Shown here in pieces: positions 34,134-63,203 of a stretch of DNA of 64,000 nt. The notes under the pieces were generated by a model. The model worked only from the letters and a program-made list of their open reading frames with translations. It did no database searches and was not told where the DNA came from. The first letter of the stretch is position 1. Every line of letters begins with the position of its first letter. A program made the position numbers and the translations under genes. Origin of the DNA: Streptomyces sp. CB02366 (GTDB lineage: Bacteria > Actinomycetota > Actinomycetes > Streptomycetales > Streptomycetaceae). Where the stretch lies: contig NZ_LIVT01000001.1 in the NCBI RefSeq assembly GCF_001905905.1, forward strand, positions 186,001-250,000, written 5' to 3'.

Positions 34134-34529
34134 ATGCTTTCCCGCCTGTTTGCCCCCAAGCTGAAGGTCAGCGCCCACTGCGACCTGCCCTGCGGCGTCT
34201 ACGACCCGGCCCAGGCCCGCATCGAGGCCGAGTCGGTCAAGGCCGTCCAGGAGAAGTACCAGGCCAACGAGGACGCGGACTTCCGCACCCGCGCGATCCT
34301 GATCAAGGAGCAGCGCGCCGAGCTCGCGAAGCACCACATCTCGGTGCTCTGGAGCGACTACTTCAAGCCCCCGCACTTCGAGAAGTACCCGGAGCTGCAC
34401 CAGCTGGTCAACGACACCCTGAAGGCGCTCTCCGCGGCCAAGGGCTCGAACGACCCGAAGACGGGCCAGAAGGCCCTGGACCTCATCGCCGAGGTCGACC
34501 GGATCTTCTGGGAGACCAAGAAGGCTTGA
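34134..34529 (+). CDS. sodN: Superoxide dismutase, nickel type
   Basis: 131 residues. The 14-residue leader MLSRLFAPKLKVSA is followed by the nickel hook HCDLPCGVYDP, in which the mature His1, Cys2 and Cys6 bind Ni; mature length 117. The rest is the four-helix bundle (IEAESVKAVQEKY, FRTRAILIKEQRAEL, LHQLVNDTLKAL, KALDLIAEVDRIFWETKKA). It dismutates superoxide in the cytoplasm as a homohexamer. Transcription in Streptomyces normally depends on nickel supply; no Nur box was identified with confidence. GAGGAC precedes the ATG. Confidence 0.97.
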   Translation: MLSRLFAPKLKVSAHCDLPCGVYDPAQARIEAESVKAVQEKYQANEDADFRTRAILIKEQRAELAKHHISVLWSDYFKPPHFEKYPELHQLVNDTLKALSAAKGSNDPKTGQKALDLIAEVDRIFWETKKA

Positions 34530-34714
34530 TCCGGACGGGCAGGCCGACTCGGCCGCCAGCGGCCGGTGACGCCGCTCGTTCGACCGCGCCCGGTTCGCGG
34601 GTCGCCGATCTCGGCGGCCGGCGGACCGGGTTTTTCTTGCGTCCAAACGTTGAGGAACACGGGCTTACCAGACGTGCACGGCACGTGACCCCGCATACTC
34701 GGCTTCAGCATGAC

Positions 34715-34986: not shown

Positions 34987-35832
34987 ATGGGCGCAGAGGA
35001 CGCCGCACCGTGTCGTCACGCGGGAGCGCCGCCCCCGGAGGTCGTCGAGAGGGTTTCGGGCCTGATCCGCCGTCTGGGGGCGGAGACAGAACTGCTGGAG
35101 CGTAGCGGCGTCACCGCGGAGGAATTCCGGGACGCGCTGCCGATGGCGATCCAGAAGATGCGCGGCAGTATGAGCGCCAGCAACGCCGAGCGCCGGGAGT
35201 TCGTCCGAGACGTGCTCGGCCTACTGGTCGCCGAGGGCTTGGCGGACCGCCTCGACGAGCCGACGTACGGCGACGATACCGTGTACCGCCTTTCCGTCCC
35301 CGGCATGGATCGCGACGTCGCCGTCATCCAGAAGGGATGCCCTGACGGGGCTCACAGCAGCACTCGATGGTCGGCGCCGGAGTGGGCGGGCGAGGTCTAC
35401 CTGTGGTGGGTATGCGACAACATGGGTTTCCAGCCGGGGGAGCACGTCTCCAAAGGAGTCAACCGGCTTTTCAAGCGTTTGACCGACGGGGGACGTGATC
35501 GACTCGCCGGCGTGATCTTCCACAGCAGTCCCTGCGGTGGGGCCGCCCGCGTCTGTCCGAAGGCTGACCGGTCCGTCACGATCGGTGGCCGCGAGGTGCC
35601 GCCGCCGTGCGTCTACGTGTTCCCTGACCCAGATCCGTCGGCGAGCGAGTGGAACTGGCGCGGAGGCCAAGAACGTCGTTTCCCCGCCGTCCTGCTCAAG
35701 GCTTTCCGCATCCCCGAGGAGCAGGCGCCGCATTTCGTCGGAGACATCGGTTACCGGTTGGTCGGCGGTCGGCGAAAGACCCACATCGTTTCGCGTGCCG
35801 GCCTCGGCCGCACGACTTCGCACAGGAGCTGA
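34987..35832 (+). CDS. Island protein 1, unknown function (possible nuclease-like)
   Basis: 281 residues from the ATG at 34987 (AGGGGG 6 nt before). Not recognised. N-terminal ~100 residues are helical, with VVERVSGLIRRLGAE and EFRDALPMAIQKMRG. The middle is beta-rich: YRLSVPGMDRDVAVIQKGC, then WAGEVYLWWVCDNMG and LAGVIFHSSPCGG. The DxxVIQKG and V-Y-L-W-W-V-C pattern resembles the core of restriction-endonuclease-like folds, but no complete PD-(D/E)xK set is visible. Three of its Cys lie in SSPCGGAARVC and PPPC. First gene of a tightly packed four-gene operon (5 nt to the next), so it likely acts with the ParB-like and SNF2-like proteins, perhaps as target-recognition or effector subunit. Confidence 0.75.
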   Translation: MGAEDAAPCRHAGAPPPEVVERVSGLIRRLGAETELLERSGVTAEEFRDALPMAIQKMRGSMSASNAERREFVRDVLGLLVAEGLADRLDEPTYGDDTVYRLSVPGMDRDVAVIQKGCPDGAHSSTRWSAPEWAGEVYLWWVCDNMGFQPGEHVSKGVNRLFKRLTDGGRDRLAGVIFHSSPCGGAARVCPKADRSVTIGGREVPPPCVYVFPDPDPSASEWNWRGGQERRFPAVLLKAFRIPEEQAPHFVGDIGYRLVGGRRKTHIVSRAGLGRTTSHRS

Positions 35833-35837
35833 CGCCC

Positions 35838-37172
35838 ATGCACGTTCCGGTCCCCGCCCTCGACCCGAACCGGTCCGTCTACCTGGCGGCCCGCCTGGGC
35901 GACTCGCCTCGAACCATGCCGGTACCCGCGTGGCCGCGCCCCGACAAGGAGCTGCCCGTCGTCAATCTCGAAGTCGCCTGGGTGTGTTTCTCCACCATCA
36001 ACCATCGCACCAAGGCGGAGCAGATCCGCGAGCGTCGCAAGAGCGGCCGCGACGATCTGTTCGAACGCAGCCCGCTCGGGAAAGAGGCGCAGGACGCCCA
36101 GTACAACATCTTGCGTGGGCAGGAGGGCTTCGCCGAGCTCAAGGAAGACTTGAAGACGCGGGGGCAGCAGGAGCCGGCCATCGTCACCGCCGACGGTGTG
36201 CTCATCAACGGCAACCGCCGTTCCGCAGCCATGCGGTCCCTGTTCGTCGACGATGACGTGCGCGGCGCGCGTTATGTGCGGTGCCTGGTCCTTCCCGCAG
36301 ACGCCACGGCCGCGGAGCTGGTGGATCTCGAGACGGAACTCCAAGTCGCCAAGGACTTCAAGCAGGACTACTCGTGGATCAATGAGGCCTTGTTGATCGA
36401 AGAGCTGTATGAGCGCGAGAACAAGAACTTCAAGCGGGTGGCAGAGCGGGTACACCGCACCGTGGCCGATGTCCGCGCGTACTACGACAAGATCCAGCAG
36501 GTCCACCAGCTCGTGGCCATATCGAAGGGCACCCGAGAGTATGTGGACTTCATCCCCAACGAGTCCGCGTTCGACGAGCTCGCGAAACACATCAAGAACA
36601 AGAGCGAATCCGAGGCGCAGAGCGTCAAGGATGTGTATTTCATCGGCACGCTGACCGGCGTGGAGTACCGGAACCTGCGTCATCTACGCCGTCCCGACGC
36701 CGCCGCGCTGGTGCTCGACGAGATCAGGAGCGACTCCAGGCTGGAGGCGGTGCTCGATGAGGCGGCCAAGAGCCCGGACGCCGAGGAGAAGGACGACGAC
36801 CTTCTGGACGCCTTCCTCGACGACGGTCCCAGCGCCTCCGAGCCGCTCAGTGGTCTCCTGCGGCTCGTTGCAGCCACGGACAAGGAGGGGACCGTCAAGC
36901 TCGGCGACGGTCCGCCGATGGAGGCGAGCCAGTTGCTCAGCGGACTTCGGCGGTCGATCACCAACGCCGCGACCGAGGCGAAGGAGGACACACGGGACCG
37001 CAAGGAGGTCACGGCGCCGTTCGAGCGGGCGGACGCGGCCATCGGCGAACTCAACCGCATGATCCATGCGCTGCCGCGAGCCCGCCGGTACGACGACTGG
37101 AACGAGGCGGCGTTCACGGCCAAGGTGGAGCAGCTTGAGGAACTCCTGCTGAAGGTCAAGGGGCGGCCTTGA
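35838..37172 (+). CDS. Island protein 2, ParB/sulfiredoxin-like domain protein
   Basis: 444 residues from the ATG at 35838 (AGGAG 10 nt upstream). ParB/Srx-type N domain ~35-165: LKTRGQQEPAIV at ~105-116 and VLINGNRRSAAMRSL at ~121-135, in which GNRR corresponds to the GxRR nucleotide-binding motif of ParB-like proteins. A following helical part (NKNFKRVAERVHRTVADVRAYY, ~196-216) looks like a helix-turn-helix. The C-terminal half is acidic and helical. ParB-like folds in defence loci (DndB, DUF262 proteins) bind nucleotides or sense modified DNA, so a DNA-sensing or NTP-dependent regulatory role is plausible. Partition is unlikely: no ParA gene is near. Stop overlaps the next start. Confidence 0.8.
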   Translation: MHVPVPALDPNRSVYLAARLGDSPRTMPVPAWPRPDKELPVVNLEVAWVCFSTINHRTKAEQIRERRKSGRDDLFERSPLGKEAQDAQYNILRGQEGFAELKEDLKTRGQQEPAIVTADGVLINGNRRSAAMRSLFVDDDVRGARYVRCLVLPADATAAELVDLETELQVAKDFKQDYSWINEALLIEELYERENKNFKRVAERVHRTVADVRAYYDKIQQVHQLVAISKGTREYVDFIPNESAFDELAKHIKNKSESEAQSVKDVYFIGTLTGVEYRNLRHLRRPDAAALVLDEIRSDSRLEAVLDEAAKSPDAEEKDDDLLDAFLDDGPSASEPLSGLLRLVAATDKEGTVKLGDGPPMEASQLLSGLRRSITNAATEAKEDTRDRKEVTAPFERADAAIGELNRMIHALPRARRYDDWNEAAFTAKVEQLEELLLKVKGRP

Positions 37173-39049
37173 TCTACGCCGAGTTGTACGGGGCTCCTCG
37201 GCCCGTCGTCGTTCTGGAGAAGCGCGCCGACACGGGACTGGGTGCGTGGGCGAGCATCCAGGAGACGCTCGCGCGGGGCATCGTCGGTGGTGCGAGCGAC
37301 CGAACCGAAGTGCGGGTAGAGGTGTTCCTCGCCGAGCTCCACGTCATCGGAGCCGTCCGCAACCGCTACCGCGAGAAGTTGGACTTTGGCCCGGCTCTGA
37401 AACAGCAGGTTCAGGCCCTGCTGTCGGACCAGCGGCAGCGGCAGGCGGCCCTGGACGATCCCGGCGCCGTCGACACTCCGGCGGATCTCGAGGAATTGCT
37501 CGCGCAAGCCGGATTCATCCGCCGCCTGAAATCCTTCCAGTTGGAGAACCTCGCGCGGATCGTACGGCTGCCGCATGCAGCGGACTTCTCGGTGCCCGGC
37601 GCCGGCAAGACGACGGTGGCCCTGGCCAATCACGCCATCGCGTGCGCTCGGGGCCAGGTCGAGCAGATGCTGGTTATCGCCCCGCTCGCGGCCTTCGCTG
37701 CCTGGAAGGAAGAGGTCAAGGCGTGTCTCGAGCCCGCTCCGCGGCTCACGGTCTACCAGGGCGCCGGTTCGCTGATCCCGCAGAGCACACAGATCCTGCT
37801 GACGAACTACAACCGGGCCGCCACCGATTACGACCGTATCCGCGACTTCGTGGCGCGTCGTCCCACCCAGGTCGTTCTGGACGAGGCACACCGCATCAAG
37901 CGGGGTTCCGGCGGGGTTCACGGGCGTGCTGTCCTCGACCTCGCCTACGCGGCACGCCGACGCGACGTACTGACCGGTACGCCTGCCCCGCAGGGCGCGC
38001 ACGACCTGGTGGCTCCGATCCGGTTCCTGTACCCGGGGCAGGACCGGAAGATCCTGCCGCAGAGCGCGTACAACGAGCGCAACGGCCGTGACGAGGATGT
38101 GGTCCGGGACACGGGCGAGGCGATCGCGAAGTATTTCGTCCGGACGCCCAAGGCCCGGCTCCAGTTGCCGCGGACGGAGATCGTCGTGGAACCGACGGAG
38201 ACCAGGCCCATCCAGAAGGCGATCTACGAGGCGCTCCTGGGCCGTTACCGTGGAGAGTTCGCGCTGGCGACGAAAGACCGCCGGGACTTCGACCGGCTCG
38301 GGCGGATCGTCATGTATCTGCTGGAGGCGGCGACCAACCCGGGCCTGTTGGTGGCGGGTTCGGACAAGGACGACGAGACGGGATTCGCCCATCCCCCCTT
38401 GCAGGTGGCGAGTGACGAGCCCCTGATGCGGCTGCTGAACTCGTATCAGGCGCACGAGGTTCCCTGGAAGTACGACCGCGTGCGGGAGATCGTCGCGAAG
38501 GAGGCCGCGCGCGGACAGAAAGTGCTCGTGTGGTCGACGTTCGTGCGCAATCTCAAAATTCTGCGCGGATTCCTCGAGGAATACCGGCCCGCGGTGGTGC
38601 ACGGCGGCGTGCCCGCCGCGGACGGAGCGTCTGCGGGCGCGGTAACCAGGGAGAGCGAGTTCGACCGTTTCCGCACCGACCCGGATTGCAAGGTGCTGCT
38701 CGCGAATCCGGCCGCGTGCGGCGAGGGCATCAGTCTGCAGCACTGGTGCCACCACGCGGTCTATCTGGACCGGACCTTCAATGCCGGCCACTACCTGCAG
38801 AGCCAGGACCGCATCCACCGCATCGGTCTCGCAGAAGGCACCCTCACGAAATTCACGCTCCTGTTGAGCCGGGGCACGATCGACGAGACGGTGGACGGCC
38901 GGCTTCGTGACAAGATCGAGGCGATGGCGAAGCTGATGAACGATCCCGGGCTCGTCCGGGTGTCGCTTCCGGAGCCCGATGAGCAGGTCGGAGGGTCCGC
39001 CGCTGCGGACGACGACATGCAGGTCGTGGCGGCCATGCTGCGCGGGTGA
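37169..39049 (+). CDS. Island protein 3, SNF2-type helicase/ATPase
   Basis: 626 residues from a TTG that overlaps the previous stop (TTGA), with AAGGGGCGG upstream. N-terminal ~130 residues are specific to this protein. RecA-1: Walker A VPGAGKTT 142-149, motif II LDEAH 237-241, motif III TGTPAPQG ~269-276. RecA-2: KVLVWSTF, motif V-like NPAACGEGISLQH and motif VI QSQDRIHRIG, the SNF2/Rad54 signature. SNF2 proteins translocate on double-stranded DNA using ATP and do not fully unwind it; in restriction-like systems they move along DNA or remodel bound complexes. Very likely the motor of this operon. Confidence 0.9.
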   Translation: MIYAELYGAPRPVVVLEKRADTGLGAWASIQETLARGIVGGASDRTEVRVEVFLAELHVIGAVRNRYREKLDFGPALKQQVQALLSDQRQRQAALDDPGAVDTPADLEELLAQAGFIRRLKSFQLENLARIVRLPHAADFSVPGAGKTTVALANHAIACARGQVEQMLVIAPLAAFAAWKEEVKACLEPAPRLTVYQGAGSLIPQSTQILLTNYNRAATDYDRIRDFVARRPTQVVLDEAHRIKRGSGGVHGRAVLDLAYAARRRDVLTGTPAPQGAHDLVAPIRFLYPGQDRKILPQSAYNERNGRDEDVVRDTGEAIAKYFVRTPKARLQLPRTEIVVEPTETRPIQKAIYEALLGRYRGEFALATKDRRDFDRLGRIVMYLLEAATNPGLLVAGSDKDDETGFAHPPLQVASDEPLMRLLNSYQAHEVPWKYDRVREIVAKEAARGQKVLVWSTFVRNLKILRGFLEEYRPAVVHGGVPAADGASAGAVTRESEFDRFRTDPDCKVLLANPAACGEGISLQHWCHHAVYLDRTFNAGHYLQSQDRIHRIGLAEGTLTKFTLLLSRGTIDETVDGRLRDKIEAMAKLMNDPGLVRVSLPEPDEQVGGSAAADDDMQVVAAMLRG

Positions 39050-39059
39050 ATGAGGGTTC

Positions 39060-39995
39060 GTGAATCTGCTGCCTCGTCACGGCGTCGTATATGCGACGGT
39101 GCTGCTCGCCCATGTGGCGCGAATTTCGCCGCGCAAGGGGGTCGACGCGTGGGTGGCGGCCGCGCGACAGCACGGCTCCTACCTCGCCACCGCGACTGAC
39201 CTGAGCACGCCTGCCCGAGCGCTTGTCGCGGCGGGGCTCGCCTGCGTGGGTGAAGAAGGAAGCATAGGGCTGGCGCGTCCGCTGGAAGCGCTGGCCGCGT
39301 CGCGCGATTATCAGCGCGCCATGCACCATGCGGCGGTCACACTGCTGGCTGCTCAGCCGCCTGCATGGTTGTGGGTCGCCGTGGGGAGCGAGGGCGTCGA
39401 GCACGCGTACATCCCTCAGCCCGACCTCGATGCACTGAGCTGGCTGGGCGAGGACCTGGACGAAGTATTGGCCGAGGCCCGTCGGTTCCTCGGCGCCCGT
39501 CGGAGGGCGAACCTGGCCAAGGAGATCGGCGACACGGCAGAGGAGATCGTCGTAGCGGCGCTGAGGGCAGCAGGCCAAGAGCCGGTTCACGTCGCCCGGA
39601 TCTCCGACGCCTACGGCTACGACGTGGAGCTGCCCGAGGAGCCGATCCGGTTTCTGGAGGTGAAGGCGGCAGGACCGCAGACGGCCGATCGCTTCCATCT
39701 CTCCCGCAACGAATTCGACACGTGTGTACGCCGCGGGGACGCGTGGCGGATCGTTCAGGTGGTGTTCAAGGCGAGCGCGTTCGTCGCGGACCCGATCACG
39801 GCGGCGGACGTCTGCGAGATACGGGAGCTGTCCGCCGCTGCGGTACACGACCTCGTACCCGGGGACACCTCCGGGTTCAGATGGGAGACGTCGGCGGTCC
39901 TCACTCCGTCCGCGTCACTGTGGCGACCGAGCGGTCTGGTACCTGATCCCGGCTTTCTACGGCCGGGCTTCGACCCGCACGCCGCCGACGGCTGA
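39060..39995 (+). CDS. Island protein 4, DUF3883 (PD-(D/E)xK-like) domain protein
   Basis: 311 residues from a GTG with GAGGG 3 nt upstream; 10 nt after the helicase stop. N-terminal ~150 residues are helical, with ARISPRKGVDAWVAAARQ. C-terminal DUF3883 domain: helix KEIGDTAEEIVVAAL (Glu 161/162), YGYDVEL (Asp 188), FLEVKAAG (Glu 200-Val-Lys 202), FHLSRNEFDTC and WRIVQVVF. D-x(11)-E-x-K is the metal-binding layout of restriction-endonuclease-like nucleases, so this protein is the best candidate for the DNA-cutting subunit. DUF3883 proteins recur in phage-defence loci beside helicases. Tail-to-tail with the cytosine methyltransferase gene. Confidence 0.85.
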   Translation: MNLLPRHGVVYATVLLAHVARISPRKGVDAWVAAARQHGSYLATATDLSTPARALVAAGLACVGEEGSIGLARPLEALAASRDYQRAMHHAAVTLLAAQPPAWLWVAVGSEGVEHAYIPQPDLDALSWLGEDLDEVLAEARRFLGARRRANLAKEIGDTAEEIVVAALRAAGQEPVHVARISDAYGYDVELPEEPIRFLEVKAAGPQTADRFHLSRNEFDTCVRRGDAWRIVQVVFKASAFVADPITAADVCEIRELSAAAVHDLVPGDTSGFRWETSAVLTPSASLWRPSGLVPDPGFLRPGFDPHAADG

Positions 39996-40026
39996 GCCCG
40001 GCCCCGCGGTCTCGGGTTCTCGGCGA

Positions 40027-41217
40027 TCAGCGACTCTTCTGCTCCGCGATGAGCGGCTTCAAGTAGTGTTCGGCGAGCCAGGCGACCGCATCGACGCAAA
40101 CGGCGTCGCCGAAGCCCATCAGCGCCTGATTCGTCCGGGCCGGAAGCGTGTAGTCGTCCGCCCCCATCAGGCAGGCGTACTCGTGCGCCGTCATCCACCG
40201 GGTCCGCAGGCCTTTCGGGCCGATCTCCACGACGGCCTGCTTCGAGGAGCCGCCGCCGGTGGTACGCAAACAGCCCGCGATATCGTCCGCTCGGATCTCC
40301 CAGGCCGGCTTTCCGCCACGTGTGCGGCGATAGGCGGTCCGGTAGACGGTCGAGCCTTTCTCCTTCAGCTGCGCGATGCGCTGGAGCTGGATCTCGGAAA
40401 GCTGCTCCTCGAACTTCCTCTGCCGCTGCTCGTCCCACCAGACGTCGTCGGGGACGGGATCATTCTTCTCGATAAGCGTCGTCCAGCCTTCTACGCGGTG
40501 AGAGGGGGGACTGGGCAAGGCTGCGCGGTGGGTGCGCAGGTCTTCGTCATCGAATACGGGATCCAGCCAGGACGGACGCAAGAAGGCGTTCCGGCTCTCA
40601 GGGTCCTCTTCCACCGGAGCGTGGCGTGCTCCGACGAGGAAAAGGCGCGGGCGTGACTGCGGAACCCAACTGCGAGCGTCCAACGTCAGAACGTCCAGCG
40701 AGTACCCGAGACGGTTGAGCTCCTGGACTGCCGCCCGGAGGTCTGCCCCGCCGTGACTGGTGGCGAACCCGTTGACGTTCTCGAGTGCGACCACCGCGGG
40801 ACGGTCGCTCTCACCGAGGTTCTCCAGAATCTTGGTGAAATCCCAGAACGTCCCGGAGTGCTTGCCCGCAAGACCTTTTCGTCCGCCGGCGAGCGAAAGG
40901 TCCGTGCAGGGGAAGGAAGCCCAGGCGAGATCGAGATCACGCGGCAGACCTGGCGCACTCTCGTCCTCAGCGATCTTCTTGATGTCGCCGAGCTGGTAGT
41001 GGTCGTGCTCGTCCGCGAAGTGCCCGTTGTACATGTCTCGCTTGTCGGAGGACATGTCGTTCGCCCACACGACCTTCAGGTTCGCCCTCTCCAGCCCCAG
41101 CCGCGCCAGTCCGATGCCGGCGAAGAACTCCGCCACGGCGGGGGCGGCCGGGGCGCCGTCCTGCTCGGAGGACGCTGCAGGAGGGGGCACAGGGGCTACG
41201 ACGGGCGCGAGAGTCAC
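40027..41217 (-). CDS. DNA (cytosine-5-)methyltransferase
   Basis: 396 residues if started at the GTG at 41217, giving a normal N terminus; an ATG at 41427 with a good GGAG site would add 70 Ala/Arg-rich residues. A TAGGAT box 7 nt before the GTG would make a leaderless message and supports the short form. C5-MTase motifs: I FFAGIGLARLG (~31-41), IV SFPCTDLSLAGG (catalytic Cys ~104), VI ALENVNGF, VIII QSRPRLFLVG, then a target-recognition region and C-terminal IX/X (NQALMGFGDAVC). Methylates cytosine in a specific site; specificity is not deducible. Divergent from vsr; probably protects host DNA from the GIY-YIG nuclease. Confidence 0.92.
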   Translation of the reverse strand: MTLAPVVAPVPPPAASSEQDGAPAAPAVAEFFAGIGLARLGLERANLKVVWANDMSSDKRDMYNGHFADEHDHYQLGDIKKIAEDESAPGLPRDLDLAWASFPCTDLSLAGGRKGLAGKHSGTFWDFTKILENLGESDRPAVVALENVNGFATSHGGADLRAAVQELNRLGYSLDVLTLDARSWVPQSRPRLFLVGARHAPVEEDPESRNAFLRPSWLDPVFDDEDLRTHRAALPSPPSHRVEGWTTLIEKNDPVPDDVWWDEQRQRKFEEQLSEIQLQRIAQLKEKGSTVYRTAYRRTRGGKPAWEIRADDIAGCLRTTGGGSSKQAVVEIGPKGLRTRWMTAHEYACLMGADDYTLPARTNQALMGFGDAVCVDAVAWLAEHYLKPLIAEQKSR

Positions 41218-41580
41218 GTCCCGGATCCTAGAACACGCCTCCGCCTCGAATGCGTCCGCCCGCCTGGGACCGGACTCCGGGCGGAGGAGGCCCGTGCTGT
41301 TCGCGGCGGTACCGCGCCGTACGGCTCCTTCGCCGCCGTTGCTCGCTTCGGCGGGCGATTCGTGCCCGTCGCACGCTCGCCCGACCAACGGCGCGTCGAC
41401 GGCCGGCACAGCCGTTCGGTCGTTCATGATCTCGCTCCAGACGCCCAGGCCCCGAGGACCTATCCGGCCTGGCTCTCCCAGGCGGCACTTCGGTCACAGC
41501 ATCGCCAAGGTAACCGGGGCCACTGACATCACCGTCGGCCCGTCAACGATCGTAAGGCGGGAAGCGCCATAATCGTCTAT
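41218..41580. other. Divergent promoter region, methyltransferase / vsr
   Basis: 363 nt (153 nt if the methyltransferase starts at 41427). Holds TAGGAT at 41225-41230 (minus strand) as a possible -10 for the methyltransferase and CATAAT at 41568-41573 for vsr, plus the palindrome ACGATCGT at 41546-41553. Confidence 0.5.
41568..41573 (+). promoter_or_regulatory. -10 box of vsr, probable leaderless start
   Basis: CATAAT followed by 7 nt and then the GTG start at 41581, the spacing expected if transcription begins at the start codon. No Shine-Dalgarno is present. A weak -35 (around TCAACG, 41543-41548) is possible. Confidence 0.5.
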
Positions 41581-42015
41581 GTGACTCATTCGGGCGAATC
41601 GTGGGCCTCGACACCCGGCACTCGGGCCAGCATGCAGGCGAACCGTAGCCGAGACACCAAGCCGGAGCTGGCACTGCGCAGGGCCGTGCACGCCCGGGGC
41701 CTCCGCTACCGGGTCGCGACCCGCCCCTTGCCGGCGCTGCGTCGCACCGCCGACCTCGTGTTCCCGCGGCAGAAAGTCGCGGTCTTCCTCGACGGCTGCT
41801 TCTGGCACGGCTGCCCCGAGCACCACACGAAGGCGGCACGGAACTCTGAGTACTGGAAGGCGAAGGTTCGGCGCAATCGCGAGCGCGACGTGGACACCAC
41901 CGAACGCCTGACCGGCGAGGGGTGGGTCGTGATTCGGTTCTGGGAACACGAGGACCCCCTCGCCGCGGCGCTGATCGTCGAGAGGGCCGTTAAGGACCGC
42001 AACGCCTCTCGCTAG
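41581..42015 (+). CDS. vsr: Very short patch repair endonuclease (Vsr)
   Basis: 144 residues from a GTG. Vsr hallmarks: N-terminal RSRDTKPELALRRAVHARGLRYRV, Asp in RTADLVFP (~58, equivalent to the catalytic Asp51 of the E. coli enzyme), and FLDGCFWHGCPEHH (~69-82, with zinc and catalytic His/Cys). Nicks 5' of the T in T:G mismatches that arise when 5-methylcytosine deaminates within the methyltransferase target site, so it partners the adjacent cytosine methyltransferase. Divergent from it, tail-to-tail (13 nt) with the GIY-YIG gene. Confidence 0.93.
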   Translation: MTHSGESWASTPGTRASMQANRSRDTKPELALRRAVHARGLRYRVATRPLPALRRTADLVFPRQKVAVFLDGCFWHGCPEHHTKAARNSEYWKAKVRRNRERDVDTTERLTGEGWVVIRFWEHEDPLAAALIVERAVKDRNASR

Positions 42016-42028
42016 CAGCGGGGATCCG

Positions 42029-42805
42029 TCAGTCCAGGTCCACGCCTTCGTCATCGATTTCCGGTTGCCCGGAGTGCTCCTGGAAAAGAGTTCCCACCAA
42101 GCCTTCGATGTCGATCGCGTCGGCCGACGGTTCAGGCCGCCCCTCGGCGTGCGCGAGTCGTGCAGCGGCCAGGTGAGCGAGACGTGCCGCCTGGATGACG
42201 ACCACTCGACGCAGGCCCGGAGACACGGCGCCCCGTTCATGGGCGACTGCGGTCAGCCGGGAGAGCGTCTCGGCCCGGCGAGCGATGCGGGTGTCGTCAT
42301 GCCCGCGCTCTCGACGAGTCTCAGCGCTCACCAGCTCGAAGCGCCGAGACGGAGGAAGCTGCACGAGAGAGGAACGGGGAGGAATCTTCTCATTGAGTAT
42401 CGCGTGGAATCGGCTTCCCTTGATCGCCTGGACATAAGCCGAGTACTCGACTGCGTTGAGCAGGCTTCGGGCGTCATCGTCCTTGGCACTCGCGTTCTCA
42501 AGATCCCAAAGCGGCCACAGTTCCATCTCTGCGACTTCGAAGACGTCCAGGATGCGCATCGCCACGGCATCGGTCCGCTGATTGGTGAGATGTCTGCGAA
42601 CTCGCGTCCGCAACTTCTCATTGGTCTGGCCAACGTAGATCGGCTCGCCGTCATAGTCATAGAAGGCGTAGCAACCCCATTTGGCGTAGGACCATTTACG
42701 CCCTGCGGAGTCTGTCGCCTCCAATGCCTTATCAAGGAGGTTCCGGAAATCCTGGACCAGAGGGGCGGGCAGGTCTGAGCGCTTCGGCGCGGGGGGCGGG
42801 GTCAT
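42029..42805 (-). CDS. GIY-YIG nuclease, probable cognate restriction endonuclease
   Basis: 258 residues from the ATG at 42805 (GAGGACC ~10 nt upstream). GIY-YIG core: CYAFYDYDGEPIYVGQTN (~45-62, Tyr and Y-V-G), LRTRVRRHL (catalytic Arg ~66-70), NAVEYSAYV (metal-binding Glu ~120) and FHAILNEKIP (Asn ~138). This is the residue set of GIY-YIG enzymes, including the Eco29kI/Cfr42I type II restriction endonucleases. The C-terminal ~100 residues are helical and unique, with RRERGHDDTRIARRAETLSR and a second, alanine-rich helix. Next to a cytosine methyltransferase and vsr, a restriction role is the best inference. A 14-bp palindrome lies 37 nt upstream. Confidence 0.85.
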   Translation of the reverse strand: MTPPPAPKRSDLPAPLVQDFRNLLDKALEATDSAGRKWSYAKWGCYAFYDYDGEPIYVGQTNEKLRTRVRRHLTNQRTDAVAMRILDVFEVAEMELWPLWDLENASAKDDDARSLLNAVEYSAYVQAIKGSRFHAILNEKIPPRSSLVQLPPSRRFELVSAETRRERGHDDTRIARRAETLSRLTAVAHERGAVSPGLRRVVVIQAARLAHLAAARLAHAEGRPEPSADAIDIEGLVGTLFQEHSGQPEIDDEGVDLD

Positions 42806-42841
42806 AAGGGATCGAGGTCCTCAGGGGGTCAGATGAATATC

Positions 42842-42855
42842 AGCAAGATCTTGCT
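42842..42855. promoter_or_regulatory. Palindrome AGCAAGATCTTGCT upstream of GIY-YIG gene
   Basis: Perfect 14-bp palindrome, 37 nt from the GIY-YIG start and next to a possible -10 GATATT (minus strand). Candidate operator delaying nuclease expression. Confidence 0.6.
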
Positions 42856-43061
42856 TCCTGGGATTCCTATCACGCCCCGCATCGGCCCTCCGCCCGAGGC
42901 CTCGGGAGACAGCACGGGGAAGGCGTGGCCGACACCACACCGATCACCCTCGGAGCAGGGGGAGGCCGAGCCATGCGCCTCGCGCGCTGCACGCGGGACG
43001 GAGGCTTTCTTTCTTGCCCCCCTGGCGGCTTGCCCGGTCGTGCGCTACGGTCGCCACATAA

Positions 43062-43083
43062 CGAGACGCAACGTTTCGTCTCG
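43062..43083. promoter_or_regulatory. Inverted repeat CGAGACG-N8-CGTCTCG
   Basis: Perfect 7-bp arms around an AT-containing core (CAACGTTT), 27 nt upstream of the alpha/beta hydrolase start. Typical of a TetR-family operator; no tetR gene is adjacent. Confidence 0.6.
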
Positions 43084-43109
43084 CGTCTATCGGAACAGTG
43101 GGGTCCACC

Positions 43110-43982
43110 ATGGAACGCTTCGTCGACGTCGCCCCCGGCGTGCGCCTCTGGGCGGAGGAGCACGGCGCGCCCGGCGCTCCCGCCCTCCTCCTGGTCATGG
43201 GGGCCCAGGCGTCCGGGCTCGGGTGGCCCGACGAGCTGGTGGAGGTGTTGGCCGTACGGCACCGGGTGATCCGGTACGACCACCGGGACACCGGCCGCTC
43301 CACCGCCTCCTTCGACGAACAGCCCTACCCGCTCACCGCGTTGGCGGAGGACGCCGTCGCCGTCCTGGACGCGTTCGGGGTGGAGCGGGCGCACGTCGTG
43401 GGGATGTCGTTGGGCGGCATGCTGACGCAGTTGCTCGTCGCTGACCACCCCGACCGGCTCCTCAGCGCCACCGTCATCGGGACCACCGCGCTCAGCTCCA
43501 CCCCGTACACGGCGCCGGACGGCCGCCGGGTACCGCCGGAGGAGCTGCCCGGCGTCTCCGCGGAGCTGATGGAGCTGTGGTCGCGGCCCGTGGAGGAGCT
43601 GGGGCCGGAGGCCGAGCTGGAACGGCGGGTCGAGCACTGGCGGGTGCTGGGCGGCGGTCTGATCCCGTTCGACGCCGAGTACGCCCGCGAGTCGGAGCGC
43701 CGCATCATCGCCCACACCGGGCACCACCGCGCCGGGACCGCGCACGCCCGCGCCGACCACTCCGGCATGGAGCGCACCGGGCAGCTCGCCGCCACCGAGG
43801 TGCCCACGCTGATCATCTCGGCCCCCGCCGAACCGGTCGCGCCCGCCCCGCACGCCGAGCACCTGGCCCAGGTGATCCGCGGCGCCCGGGTCGTCGAGAT
43901 CCCCGGGATGGGGCACGCCCTCCCCCGCGAGGTCCACGCCCCGCTGGCCGCCGCGATCCTGGACCACACCGGGCGGAGCTGA
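43110..43982 (+). CDS. Alpha/beta fold hydrolase
   Basis: 290 residues from the ATG at 43110 (GGGG upstream; GTG at 43098 is the alternative). Fold: LLLVMGAQASGLGW (oxyanion region), RYDHRDTGRSTA, nucleophile elbow VVGMSLGGMLTQ (Ser ~96), and terminal His in GMGHALPREV. The acid position reads APAEPVAP, with Glu where Asp is usual. Similar to esterases such as the RdmC type and to haloperoxidase-like proteins; the MGAQ start is typical. Cytoplasmic; likely induced by the ligand of a TetR repressor through the upstream inverted repeat. Substrate unknown. Confidence 0.85.
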   Translation: MERFVDVAPGVRLWAEEHGAPGAPALLLVMGAQASGLGWPDELVEVLAVRHRVIRYDHRDTGRSTASFDEQPYPLTALAEDAVAVLDAFGVERAHVVGMSLGGMLTQLLVADHPDRLLSATVIGTTALSSTPYTAPDGRRVPPEELPGVSAELMELWSRPVEELGPEAELERRVEHWRVLGGGLIPFDAEYARESERRIIAHTGHHRAGTAHARADHSGMERTGQLAATEVPTLIISAPAEPVAPAPHAEHLAQVIRGARVVEIPGMGHALPREVHAPLAAAILDHTGRS

Positions 43983-61796: not shown

Positions 61797-63203
61797 TCAG
61801 TGCCAGCGGCTGACCTCGACGTTCTCCAGCACTCCGAGGGCGTCCGGTACCAGGATGGCGGCGGAGTAGTACGCCGTCACCAGGTAGGAGATGATCGCCT
61901 GTTCGTCGATGCCCATGAAGCGGACCGAGAGGCTCGGCTCGATCTCGTCGGGGATGCCGGTCTGCTGGAGGCCGATGACGCCCTGTTCGGCCTCCCCGGT
62001 CCTCATGCAGATGATGGAGGTGGTGCGGGCGTCGGAGATGGGGATCTTGTTGGAGGGGAAGATCGGCACCCCGCGCCAGGCGGGCACGTGGTGGCCGCCG
62101 ATGTCGACGCTCTCGGGGACGAGTCCGCGCCGGTTGCACTCGCGGCCGAAGGCGGCGATGGCCTTGGGGTGGGCGAGGAACAGCTTCGAGCCGCGGCGGC
62201 GCGAGAGCAGTTCGTCCAGGTCGTCGGGGCTGGGGGCGCCGTCGTGCGGCTGGATCCGCTGCCCGTAGTCGCAGTTGTTGAGCAGTCCGAACTCCTTGTT
62301 GTTGATGAGTTCGTGCTCCTGGCGCTCGCGCAGCGCCTCGACCGTGAGCCGCAACTGCTGCTCGGTCTGGTTCATCGGCTGGTTGTAGAGGTCGGCGACC
62401 CTGCTGTGCACCTTCAGCACCGTCTGGGCGACGCTCAGTTCGTACTCGCGGGGCGCGGCGTCGTAATCGACGAAGGTGTGCGGGACGACCGCCTCGCCGA
62501 CGTGTCCGGCGGAGAGGTCGATCGCCGCCTCGCCGTAGCGGTTGGTGCGCTGCTGCGGAATGGAGAGCAGACCGGTGAGGTGGCCCTGCAGGGACGCGGC
62601 GCGCTCCGCGAGGTTGTACACGTCGGCACGGCTCAGGGTGAGGAGCGTGCACGGGGTGACCGTCCGGGCGGTGTACTCCCAGACGGCGTCGCCGTCGACC
62701 AGGCTCTGGTCGCCGAAGTACGCGCCGTCCGCGAGGACTCCGAGGTCGGTCTCGTCCCCGTAGGGGCCGGCGCCGATCTTGGCGACCTTGCCGTGCGCCA
62801 GCAGGAAGACGCGATCCGCCGCGTCCCCCGAGGCGGCGAGCACCTCCCCCGCGGCCACGTCCCGCTGCTCGCACCGGCGGGCGAGCTCGGCGAGGACCTC
62901 CTCGTCGCCGAAGTCCCGCAGGGCGGGCAGTTCGCCCAGCTCCGCGGGGATCACGGACACCCGGTCCCCGGTCTGGACGAAGGTCACCCGCCCGTCGCCG
63001 ACCGCATAGCTGAGCCGGCGGTTCACCCGGTACGTGCCGCCCTGCACCTGCACCCAGGGCAGCATCTTCAACAGCCACCGGGAGGAGATCTCCTGCATCT
63101 GCGGCGCGGATTTGGTGGTCGTCGCGAGGTTCCGCGCGGCCGCCGTCCCCAGACTCTGCTGCGGCGGGGCCTGCGTGTCGCGAACCTCTTCACCAACGGA
63201 CAT
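61797..63203 (-). CDS. eshA: Family 2B encapsulin shell protein (EshA-type, cyclic-nucleotide-binding domain)
   Basis: 468 residues from the ATG at 63203 (AGAGGA 7 nt upstream). A flexible N-arm, HK97-like shell domain (residues ~30-90 and 205-468; [24 protein letters not shown] start and the late [26 protein letters not shown] end), with a cyclic-nucleotide-binding domain inserted at ~95-200 ([46 protein letters not shown]). This is the family 2B encapsulin layout, long known as EshA in Streptomyces and tied to morphology and secondary metabolism. The nanocompartment would enclose the polyprenyl transferase made from the next gene. Confidence 0.92.

Follow-up and report, generated by a model that had tools for sequence, protein, structure and literature searches.

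The NTP-dependent restriction endonuclease (REase) CglI combines an endonuclease protein with a helicase-like ATPase, and translocation before cutting has been proposed for it (PMC5737866); CglI and NgoAVII each have a methylase and an R protein, and their helicase-like ATPase, which depends on NTP hydrolysis, is a separate protein (PMC5737866, PMC4267653). SNF2-DUF3883 fusions are found in restriction-modification (R-M) operons, where DUF3883 was termed a novel REase domain (PMC3710099), and the MORC/paraMORC operons have SWI2/SNF2, cytosine methylase, Vsr and REase-fold genes as neighbours (PMC2292703). Here we describe a set of four genes in a 64,000-nucleotide stretch of DNA from Streptomyces sp. 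CB02366 (hereafter, the window). The set encodes a REase homologue that lacks its predicted catalytic acids (gene 1), a ParB-type protein (gene 2), a SNF2-family ATPase (gene 3) and a predicted NOV_C/DUF3883 nuclease (gene 4), and it lies beside genes for a Dcm-type methyltransferase, Vsr and a GIY-YIG nuclease (Table 1). Our reading, held tentatively and with not quite an even chance of being right, is that genes 1-4 form an ATP-driven second arm of a type II R-M system, composed of a clamp guided by a dead REase, a motor and a nuclease. A preliminary description of the locus had proposed a SNF2 motor and a DUF3883 nuclease guided by a ParB-like sensor, which perhaps reads the methylation made by Dcm; as a whole, that interpretation is partly supported.

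The locus differs from each of the systems named above. The ATPase is of the SNF2 family here and of the DEAD family in CglI/NgoAVII, the predicted reader, a dead REase, and the predicted nuclease are separate proteins here, and the module adds a ParB-type protein. R.CglI is a PLD enzyme, whereas none of the seven window genes had a PLD match and the best match of the ATPase was to SNF2. Unlike in the known fusions, SNF2 and DUF3883 are encoded by separate genes, with gene 1 and ParB in addition. The MORC/paraMORC operons hold a GHKL ATPase, for which the seven genes gave no match, and ParB is not mentioned in the accessible part of the article that describes them (PMC2292703). Since the SNF2-DUF3883 fusions (PMC3710099) and the SNF2/cytosine methylase/Vsr operons (PMC2292703) are already known, we regard this gene set as a variant; no description of the four-gene set was found in the accessible text of the open-licence PMC literature.

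The preliminary description had also recognised no classical named defence system with this set, and the PADLOC and NCBIfam checks agree. DISARM, Zorya, BREX and Druantia likewise have SNF2-type helicases, partly together with nucleases and methylases, and were rejected as sets gene by gene. The DISARM core is DrmA, DrmB and DrmC; the seven genes gave only low-scoring partial DrmA, DrmB and DrmD matches and a similarity of the methylase to DrmMII. Zorya is built on ZorA and ZorB with ZorD or ZorE, and only partial ZorD helicase similarity was seen. The window SNF2 protein fell far below the NCBIfam cut-offs for both systems (DrmD, 30.7 of 610; ZorD, 22.3 of 1500). For BREX (core PglZ, BrxC and PglX), the matches were limited to a partial similarity to the BrxH helicase and a PglZ row of 10.7 bits. 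Druantia has the DruE helicase with partners as its core; the window Dcm matches DruM2 PDLC00028 at 343 bits, but the plain MTase_II match is higher (461 bits), and no other Druantia protein was among the matches listed for the seven genes.

Genes 1-4 recur as a set beside the cassette, the kind of co-occurrence that the preliminary description had named as support. The 33 gene-1 loci compared comprise 27 from genome_contigs (found by a ParB-profile scan), one from viral_contigs, four plasmids and the window; L002 and L024 are from the same species. The gene order 1-4 is found throughout the 33 loci apart from a few losses: ParB is present in 33/33, SNF2 in 32/33 (the contig of L033 ends first) and NOV in 29/33, the contig ending before it in L024, L029 and L033 and L018 being without it. 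Hosts of the full set belong to Actinomycetota and to alpha-, beta- and gammaproteobacteria (two phyla). The L033 contig, of 4.5 kb and from a verrucomicrobial metagenome-assembled genome, carries gene 1, partial ParB, Dcm and Vsr, and the one locus from the viral_contigs scan (L034, an IMG/VR record) carries genes 1-4 with Dcm. Pairwise distances among genes 1-4 are correlated at 0.79-0.93, those within the cassette at 0.88 (Dcm-Vsr), 0.68 (Dcm-GIY) and 0.67 (Vsr-GIY), and those between genes 1-4 and Dcm/Vsr/GIY at 0.53-0.72; in permutation tests, 0-1 of 2000 runs were as high as the observed value, and shared host ancestry and rate differences remain in the correlations. The values point to genes 1-4 as a single unit of inheritance, with Dcm-Vsr as a second that is replaced more freely.

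Gene 1 had been listed as a protein of unknown type. Comparison with its relatives indicates that it is a REase homologue minus the predicted acidic metal ligands: V99 and I114 stand at the places of the predicted catalytic acids, and K116 is retained. All 33 copies have V or I instead of D and I or V instead of E and keep K116, so that the catalytic residues of the PD-(D/E)XK pattern (D, D/E-x-K) are incomplete in every copy, whereas the D is present in 125/125 relatives and the E in 123/125. In an AlphaFold2 model (pLDDT 84.8), V99 and I114/K116 lie on successive strands. Foldseek searches with this model returned nothing at E<=0.001, no usable relative came from sequence searches of the PDB with gene 1, GIY-YIG or the ParB profile, and the PHROGs match of gene 1 was to a family of unknown function. 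Relatives of gene 1 directly adjoin Dcm in L004, L005, L006, L028 and L032. One alternative is that gene 1 is still a nuclease that uses other residues, for example D120, E136 and K116, the operon then being an ordinary REase with ATP-dependent helpers. In keeping with this, D120 is found in 32/33 gene-1 copies and E136, like K116, in all of them, and both D120 and E136 occur in 125/125 relatives. The residues that were lost, however, are the two that match a D-x13-E-x-K pattern and hardly vary among the relatives, NOV already provides a nuclease, and in three loci (L004, L028 and L032) an intact relative is present alongside gene 1. We think that a cryptic nuclease is distinctly unlikely. Gene 1 is instead the best candidate for the sequence reader of the set, and it is predicted to bind the site that Dcm protects.

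Gene 2 was taken in the preliminary description for a ParB-like sensor. Its predicted structure points not to a stand-alone sensor but to a ParB-type protein with a CTPase N-domain (approximately residues 36-172), a helix-turn-helix (HTH) domain (approximately 160-297) and then a long C-terminal helix, and the succession of CTPase-fold and HTH domains is that of the CTP-dependent clamps ParB, KorB and Noc. The GNRR motif reported earlier is present as INGNRR, and the GxxR P motif of the CTPase fold is kept, G125 and R128 being invariant in 45 rows of the alignment. From the modelled structure, we predict a DNA clamp that is switched by NTP and belongs with ParB, KorB and Noc. Unlike those proteins, it has a fixed SNF2 partner, and it does not qualify as a ParABS partition protein, given that TIGR00180 scored 12.8 against a cut-off of 58.45 bits and that no ParA match was obtained among the seven genes.

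The motifs reported earlier for genes 3 and 4 were likewise recovered. The SNF2 protein has VPGAGKT (with K147), LDEAH and SQDRIHRIG, and its Pfam score (54.8 bits against a threshold of 24.9) identifies it as a SNF2 ATPase; the Walker A, DEAH and motif VI residues are retained in 31/31 aligned copies (of 32 found, the duplicate L024 was omitted). The gene 4 product matches NOV_C at 37.9 bits (threshold 22.1) and has the D-ExK signature of NOV_C/DUF3883 in the form GYD-x11-EVK, which includes K202. Its active-site residues E161, D188, E200 and K202 are retained in 32/32 aligned copies, namely 28 from gene-1 loci (out of 29; L003, where the gene is split between frames, was omitted) and four of the sister type described below. 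The alignments thus support the motor and the nuclease of the preliminary description, and in the module a dead enzyme is accompanied by a motor and a nuclease with seemingly intact active sites. This pairing bears on the possibility that the ParB-type protein and the dead REase act as a control that regulates or restrains restriction and methylation, for instance to shield self DNA that has just been replicated or has just arrived, and take no part in attack. Regulators with a ParB fold exist (KorB is titled a transcriptional repressor), a negative regulatory role has been proposed for DndB (PMC10853773), and four copies of the module are on plasmids, where restriction must be restrained; but the active-site residues of the SNF2 motor and the nuclease are kept in the aligned copies, and we consider a control module very improbable. 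Two irregular copies were seen: the NOV gene of a Kozakia plasmid is split between two frames (L003:4735-5662), and in Mesorhizobium an IS481 transposase gene lies between SNF2 and NOV (L002:13188-14135).

In the neighbouring cassette, Dcm supplies the methyltransferase of a type II R-M system and the protein with the GIY-YIG domain is the candidate REase. Dcm was found in 31/33 loci, 30 by profile and L003 by annotation, the L003 record placing Vsr, Dcm and GIY-YIG just upstream, across the origin of a circular plasmid; both Dcm-less loci (L015 and L024) have a contig end on one side. A gene in the R slot lies near the module in 26/33 loci and varies in type. It is GIY-YIG in 15 (14 by profile, L003 by annotation), a gene-1-like intact REase in the three loci already named, a DUF4928-type REase in seven (L009, L013, L018, L030 and L031 by PADLOC; L023; L001 by annotation) and an HNH gene in one (L026). 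No R was recognised in L017, L021, L027, L033 and L034, where the scan covered part of the neighbours, and L015 and L024 are truncated. In L023 (14126-15670), a REase whose N-terminal part belongs to the DUF4928 family carries a Shedu SduA nuclease domain as a fusion and lies close to Vsr and Dcm. Dcm, Vsr and GIY-YIG look like an ordinary type II R-M cassette, the nuclease of which varies among loci, and Dcm is therefore more likely to protect self sites than to supply the mark that is attacked, contrary to the suggestion that its methylation is read. The GIY-YIG REases Eco29kI and Cfr42I cut CCGC|GG, according to the accessible part of a review (PMC4081073); by analogy, this sequence is only a lead to the recognition site of the window cassette. 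The idea that the module is always the sole restriction activity was dropped, since R-slot genes were found beside it.

The R-slot genes also raise the possibility that an ordinary REase (GIY-YIG here) breaks the DNA and that genes 1-4 then process or degrade it, with gene 1 remaining bound at the site or end while SNF2 moves and NOV trims. In 26 of 33 loci the type II cassette near the module seems complete, and its R family changes, which would suit a helper independent of R chemistry. On the other hand, five Dcm loci are without a recognised R (with the scan coverage noted above, and L033 on its short contig), and a locus of a third type (L115, see below) combines ParB-SNF2-NOV with a different methylase, the three other proteins scanned there in addition to SNF2 including no REase. 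Furthermore, end processing needs no sequence-reading relative of a REase. We regard such a clean-up role as unlikely.

The ParB-SNF2 pair is common in the host genus. Among 392 genomes sampled, the ParB profile matched 69 and the SNF2 protein (E<=1e-20) 71, and both were found in 68; G240 had a marginal ParB match only, and G122, G281 and G343 had SNF2 only. SNF2 adjoins ParB in 30/30 short loci fetched. The window type (E<=1e-176) occurs in four of the genomes, the other matches being far weaker (1e-25 or weaker), and 17 of the weaker-scoring loci were opened as a sample of sister types. All 17 hold ParB, SNF2, Vsr and a Dcm that scores 18-49 bits against the window-type Dcm profile, compared with 317-715 bits for the best Dcm of each gene-1 locus (some of these loci being seeds of the profile); gene 1 pairs with one broad Dcm group and the sister first gene with other Dcms. 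This first gene, of about 230-265 residues in 17/17, contains a winged-helix-like part together with a C..C/C..C element. It is divergent from ParB in L067, L069, L070 and L074, where NOV follows SNF2; a recognised NOV was not found in the other 13. In 132 sequences of the first gene, all four Cys are retained, no His between the Cys pairs is conserved (at most 19/132 at any position listed), and His immediately precedes the first Cys in 69/132. Pfam HNH did not match it, though some sources name it an HNH endonuclease, and we offer "dead HNH" as a suggestion for what it is.

NaeI lies beside the sister module in L065, L066, L067 and L072 (Pfam) and in L077 (BLAST cluster), and NgoMIV in L070; these six of the 17 loci have NaeI-/NgoMIV-type genes, and no REase was identified in the other 11. 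None was found among the neighbours scanned in L068, L073, L078, L079 and L083, the scan having left out L071, L075, L076 and L084. GmrSD_N (DUF262) proteins adjoin the sister module at L069:4239-6296 and L074:12080-14116. The Dcms of the NaeI and NgoMIV loci form one clade, with 57-60% identity among L065, L067 and L070 (L065-L070, 59%; L065-L067, 60%), and the other sister Dcms compared (L068 and L078) are more distant, at about 41%. NaeI cuts at GCC|GGC, the same site as NgoMIV. In its accessible part, the review gives G|CCGGC for NgoMIV and prints the NaeI site as GCC|CCG, which we take as a misprint (PMC4081073). One methylase clade with one site and two REases is what a shared site-specific cassette predicts. 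A ParB-SNF2 module beside NaeI-/NgoMIV-type REases is not mentioned in the accessible part of the REase review. The third type, L115 (4546-10877), is a row made up of a DUF1156/N6-N4 methylase, a divergent ParB-like gene, SNF2 and NOV that lacks gene 1; the ParB-SNF2-NOV combination is thus not tied to gene 1 or to one kind of methylase. Two further SNF2 relatives (L113:4788-9565 and L114:4480-9239) are preceded by open reading frames (ORFs) of 853 and 966 residues, which had no Pfam match.

If genes 1-4 are a second arm, one could envision the following scheme. Dcm would mark self sites, and gene 1 would bind the same site when it is unmethylated, unable to cut, and would load the ParB-type clamp there. 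The clamp would recruit the SNF2 motor, and ATP-driven movement would bring the NOV/DUF3883 nuclease to cut away from the site, so that invading DNA without the methylation would be destroyed. The GIY-YIG enzyme would use the methylase jointly with genes 1-4 and serve, independently of ATP, as the ordinary R of the cassette. Complex formation, the order of the steps, translocation and phage defence by genes 1-4 are postulated in this scheme. What argues for a second arm is the REase homology of gene 1, the position of its relatives beside Dcm, the loss of D/E with K kept and the retained motor and nuclease residues, together with the ParB fold, the distance correlations, the frequency of Dcm, the pairing of gene 1 with a Dcm group and the variable R slot; the single methylase clade with two REases, the co-occurrence of ParB and SNF2 in the genus and the CglI precedent point the same way. 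A bolder reading is that this is a new class of restriction machine, in which an inactivated REase serves as the specificity subunit that loads an NTP-switched sliding clamp of ParB type at unmethylated sites, the clamp then carrying SNF2 and NOV along the DNA. The reader (either a dead REase of PD-(D/E)XK-like type or an HNH-like protein in which no His is conserved) and the methylase would be exchangeable, and the ParB-SNF2 core would serve different sites beside whatever ordinary REase cuts there; we consider this possible but rather doubtful. The sister first genes do not track the Dcm groups (L065-L078, 59%; L065-L070, 46%), which speaks against a strict link between reader and methylase and lowered our confidence in both the second arm and the new machine.

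Should a second arm of this kind exist, type II REases could be converted into specificity subunits of an ATP-driven machine, which would form a bridge between simple type II and motor-driven (type I/III-like) restriction, and ParB-type NTP clamps would gain a function in DNA defence. In view of the NaeI-/NgoMIV-type genes in the sister loci, a second arm may have gone unnoticed in textbook restriction systems.

ORFs and Pfam matches confirmed the seven genes of the preliminary description at their places, with genes 1-4 on the plus strand. Of the junctions described there as overlaps, the TTGA overlap of genes 2 and 3 is real, the TTG start of the SNF2 gene overlapping the TGA stop of gene 2, but the 5 nt (genes 1/2) and 10 nt (genes 3/4) are gaps.

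Table 1. Genes of the four-gene module and the adjacent cassette, in window coordinates
Feature	Position	Strand	Evidence
Gene 1 (G1), REase homologue without both predicted catalytic acids, predicted sequence reader	34987..35832	+	PADLOC REase_II PDLC03501 8.9e-22
Gene 2, ParB-type protein, predicted CTPase + HTH + long C-terminal helix	35838..37172	+	predicted structure
Gene 3, SNF2-family ATPase, predicted dsDNA translocase	37169..39049	+	Pfam SNF2-rel_dom 1e-14, Helicase_C 1.6e-8
Gene 4, NOV_C/DUF3883 predicted nuclease	39060..39995	+	Pfam NOV_C 1.9e-9
Dcm-type C5 cytosine methyltransferase (M)	40027..41427	-	Pfam DNA_methylase 1.5e-38; PADLOC MTase_II PDLC03243 8.4e-139
Vsr mismatch endonuclease (V)	41581..42015	+	NCBIfam vsr 1.9e-36, above cut-off
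GIY-YIG nuclease, likely ordinary REase (R) of the cassette	42029..42805	-	Pfam GIY-YIG 7.5e-6, above cut-off

The host genome comprises 7.37 Mb in 44 contigs, and the closest named relatives of the window ParB are from Streptomyces (89% identity). GC is 0.66-0.69 across 34-43 kb, below most of the window, and third-position GC, which had been described as lower than in the flanks, is indeed 0.71-0.87 in the seven genes, compared with 0.925-0.970 in four of their neighbours (for genes 1 and 2, slightly longer ORFs were used; the ORF at 42833-43444, with a value of 0.578, was excluded as not likely to be a gene). This is the pattern expected of acquired DNA. The left flank is common to seven relatives only as far as window 34520-34631, and when an empty insertion site was sought in relatives, the best-aligned right flanks lay at a great distance from the left one or belonged to a different contig, giving no clean boundary. 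Promoter and terminator scans gave 0 and 3 sites, equal to the shuffled level, and the repeats detected are short. Elsewhere in the window, positions 62665-63172 match Rfam RF02735 (Sernc350, Saccharopolyspora sRNA 350) at 114.9 bits.

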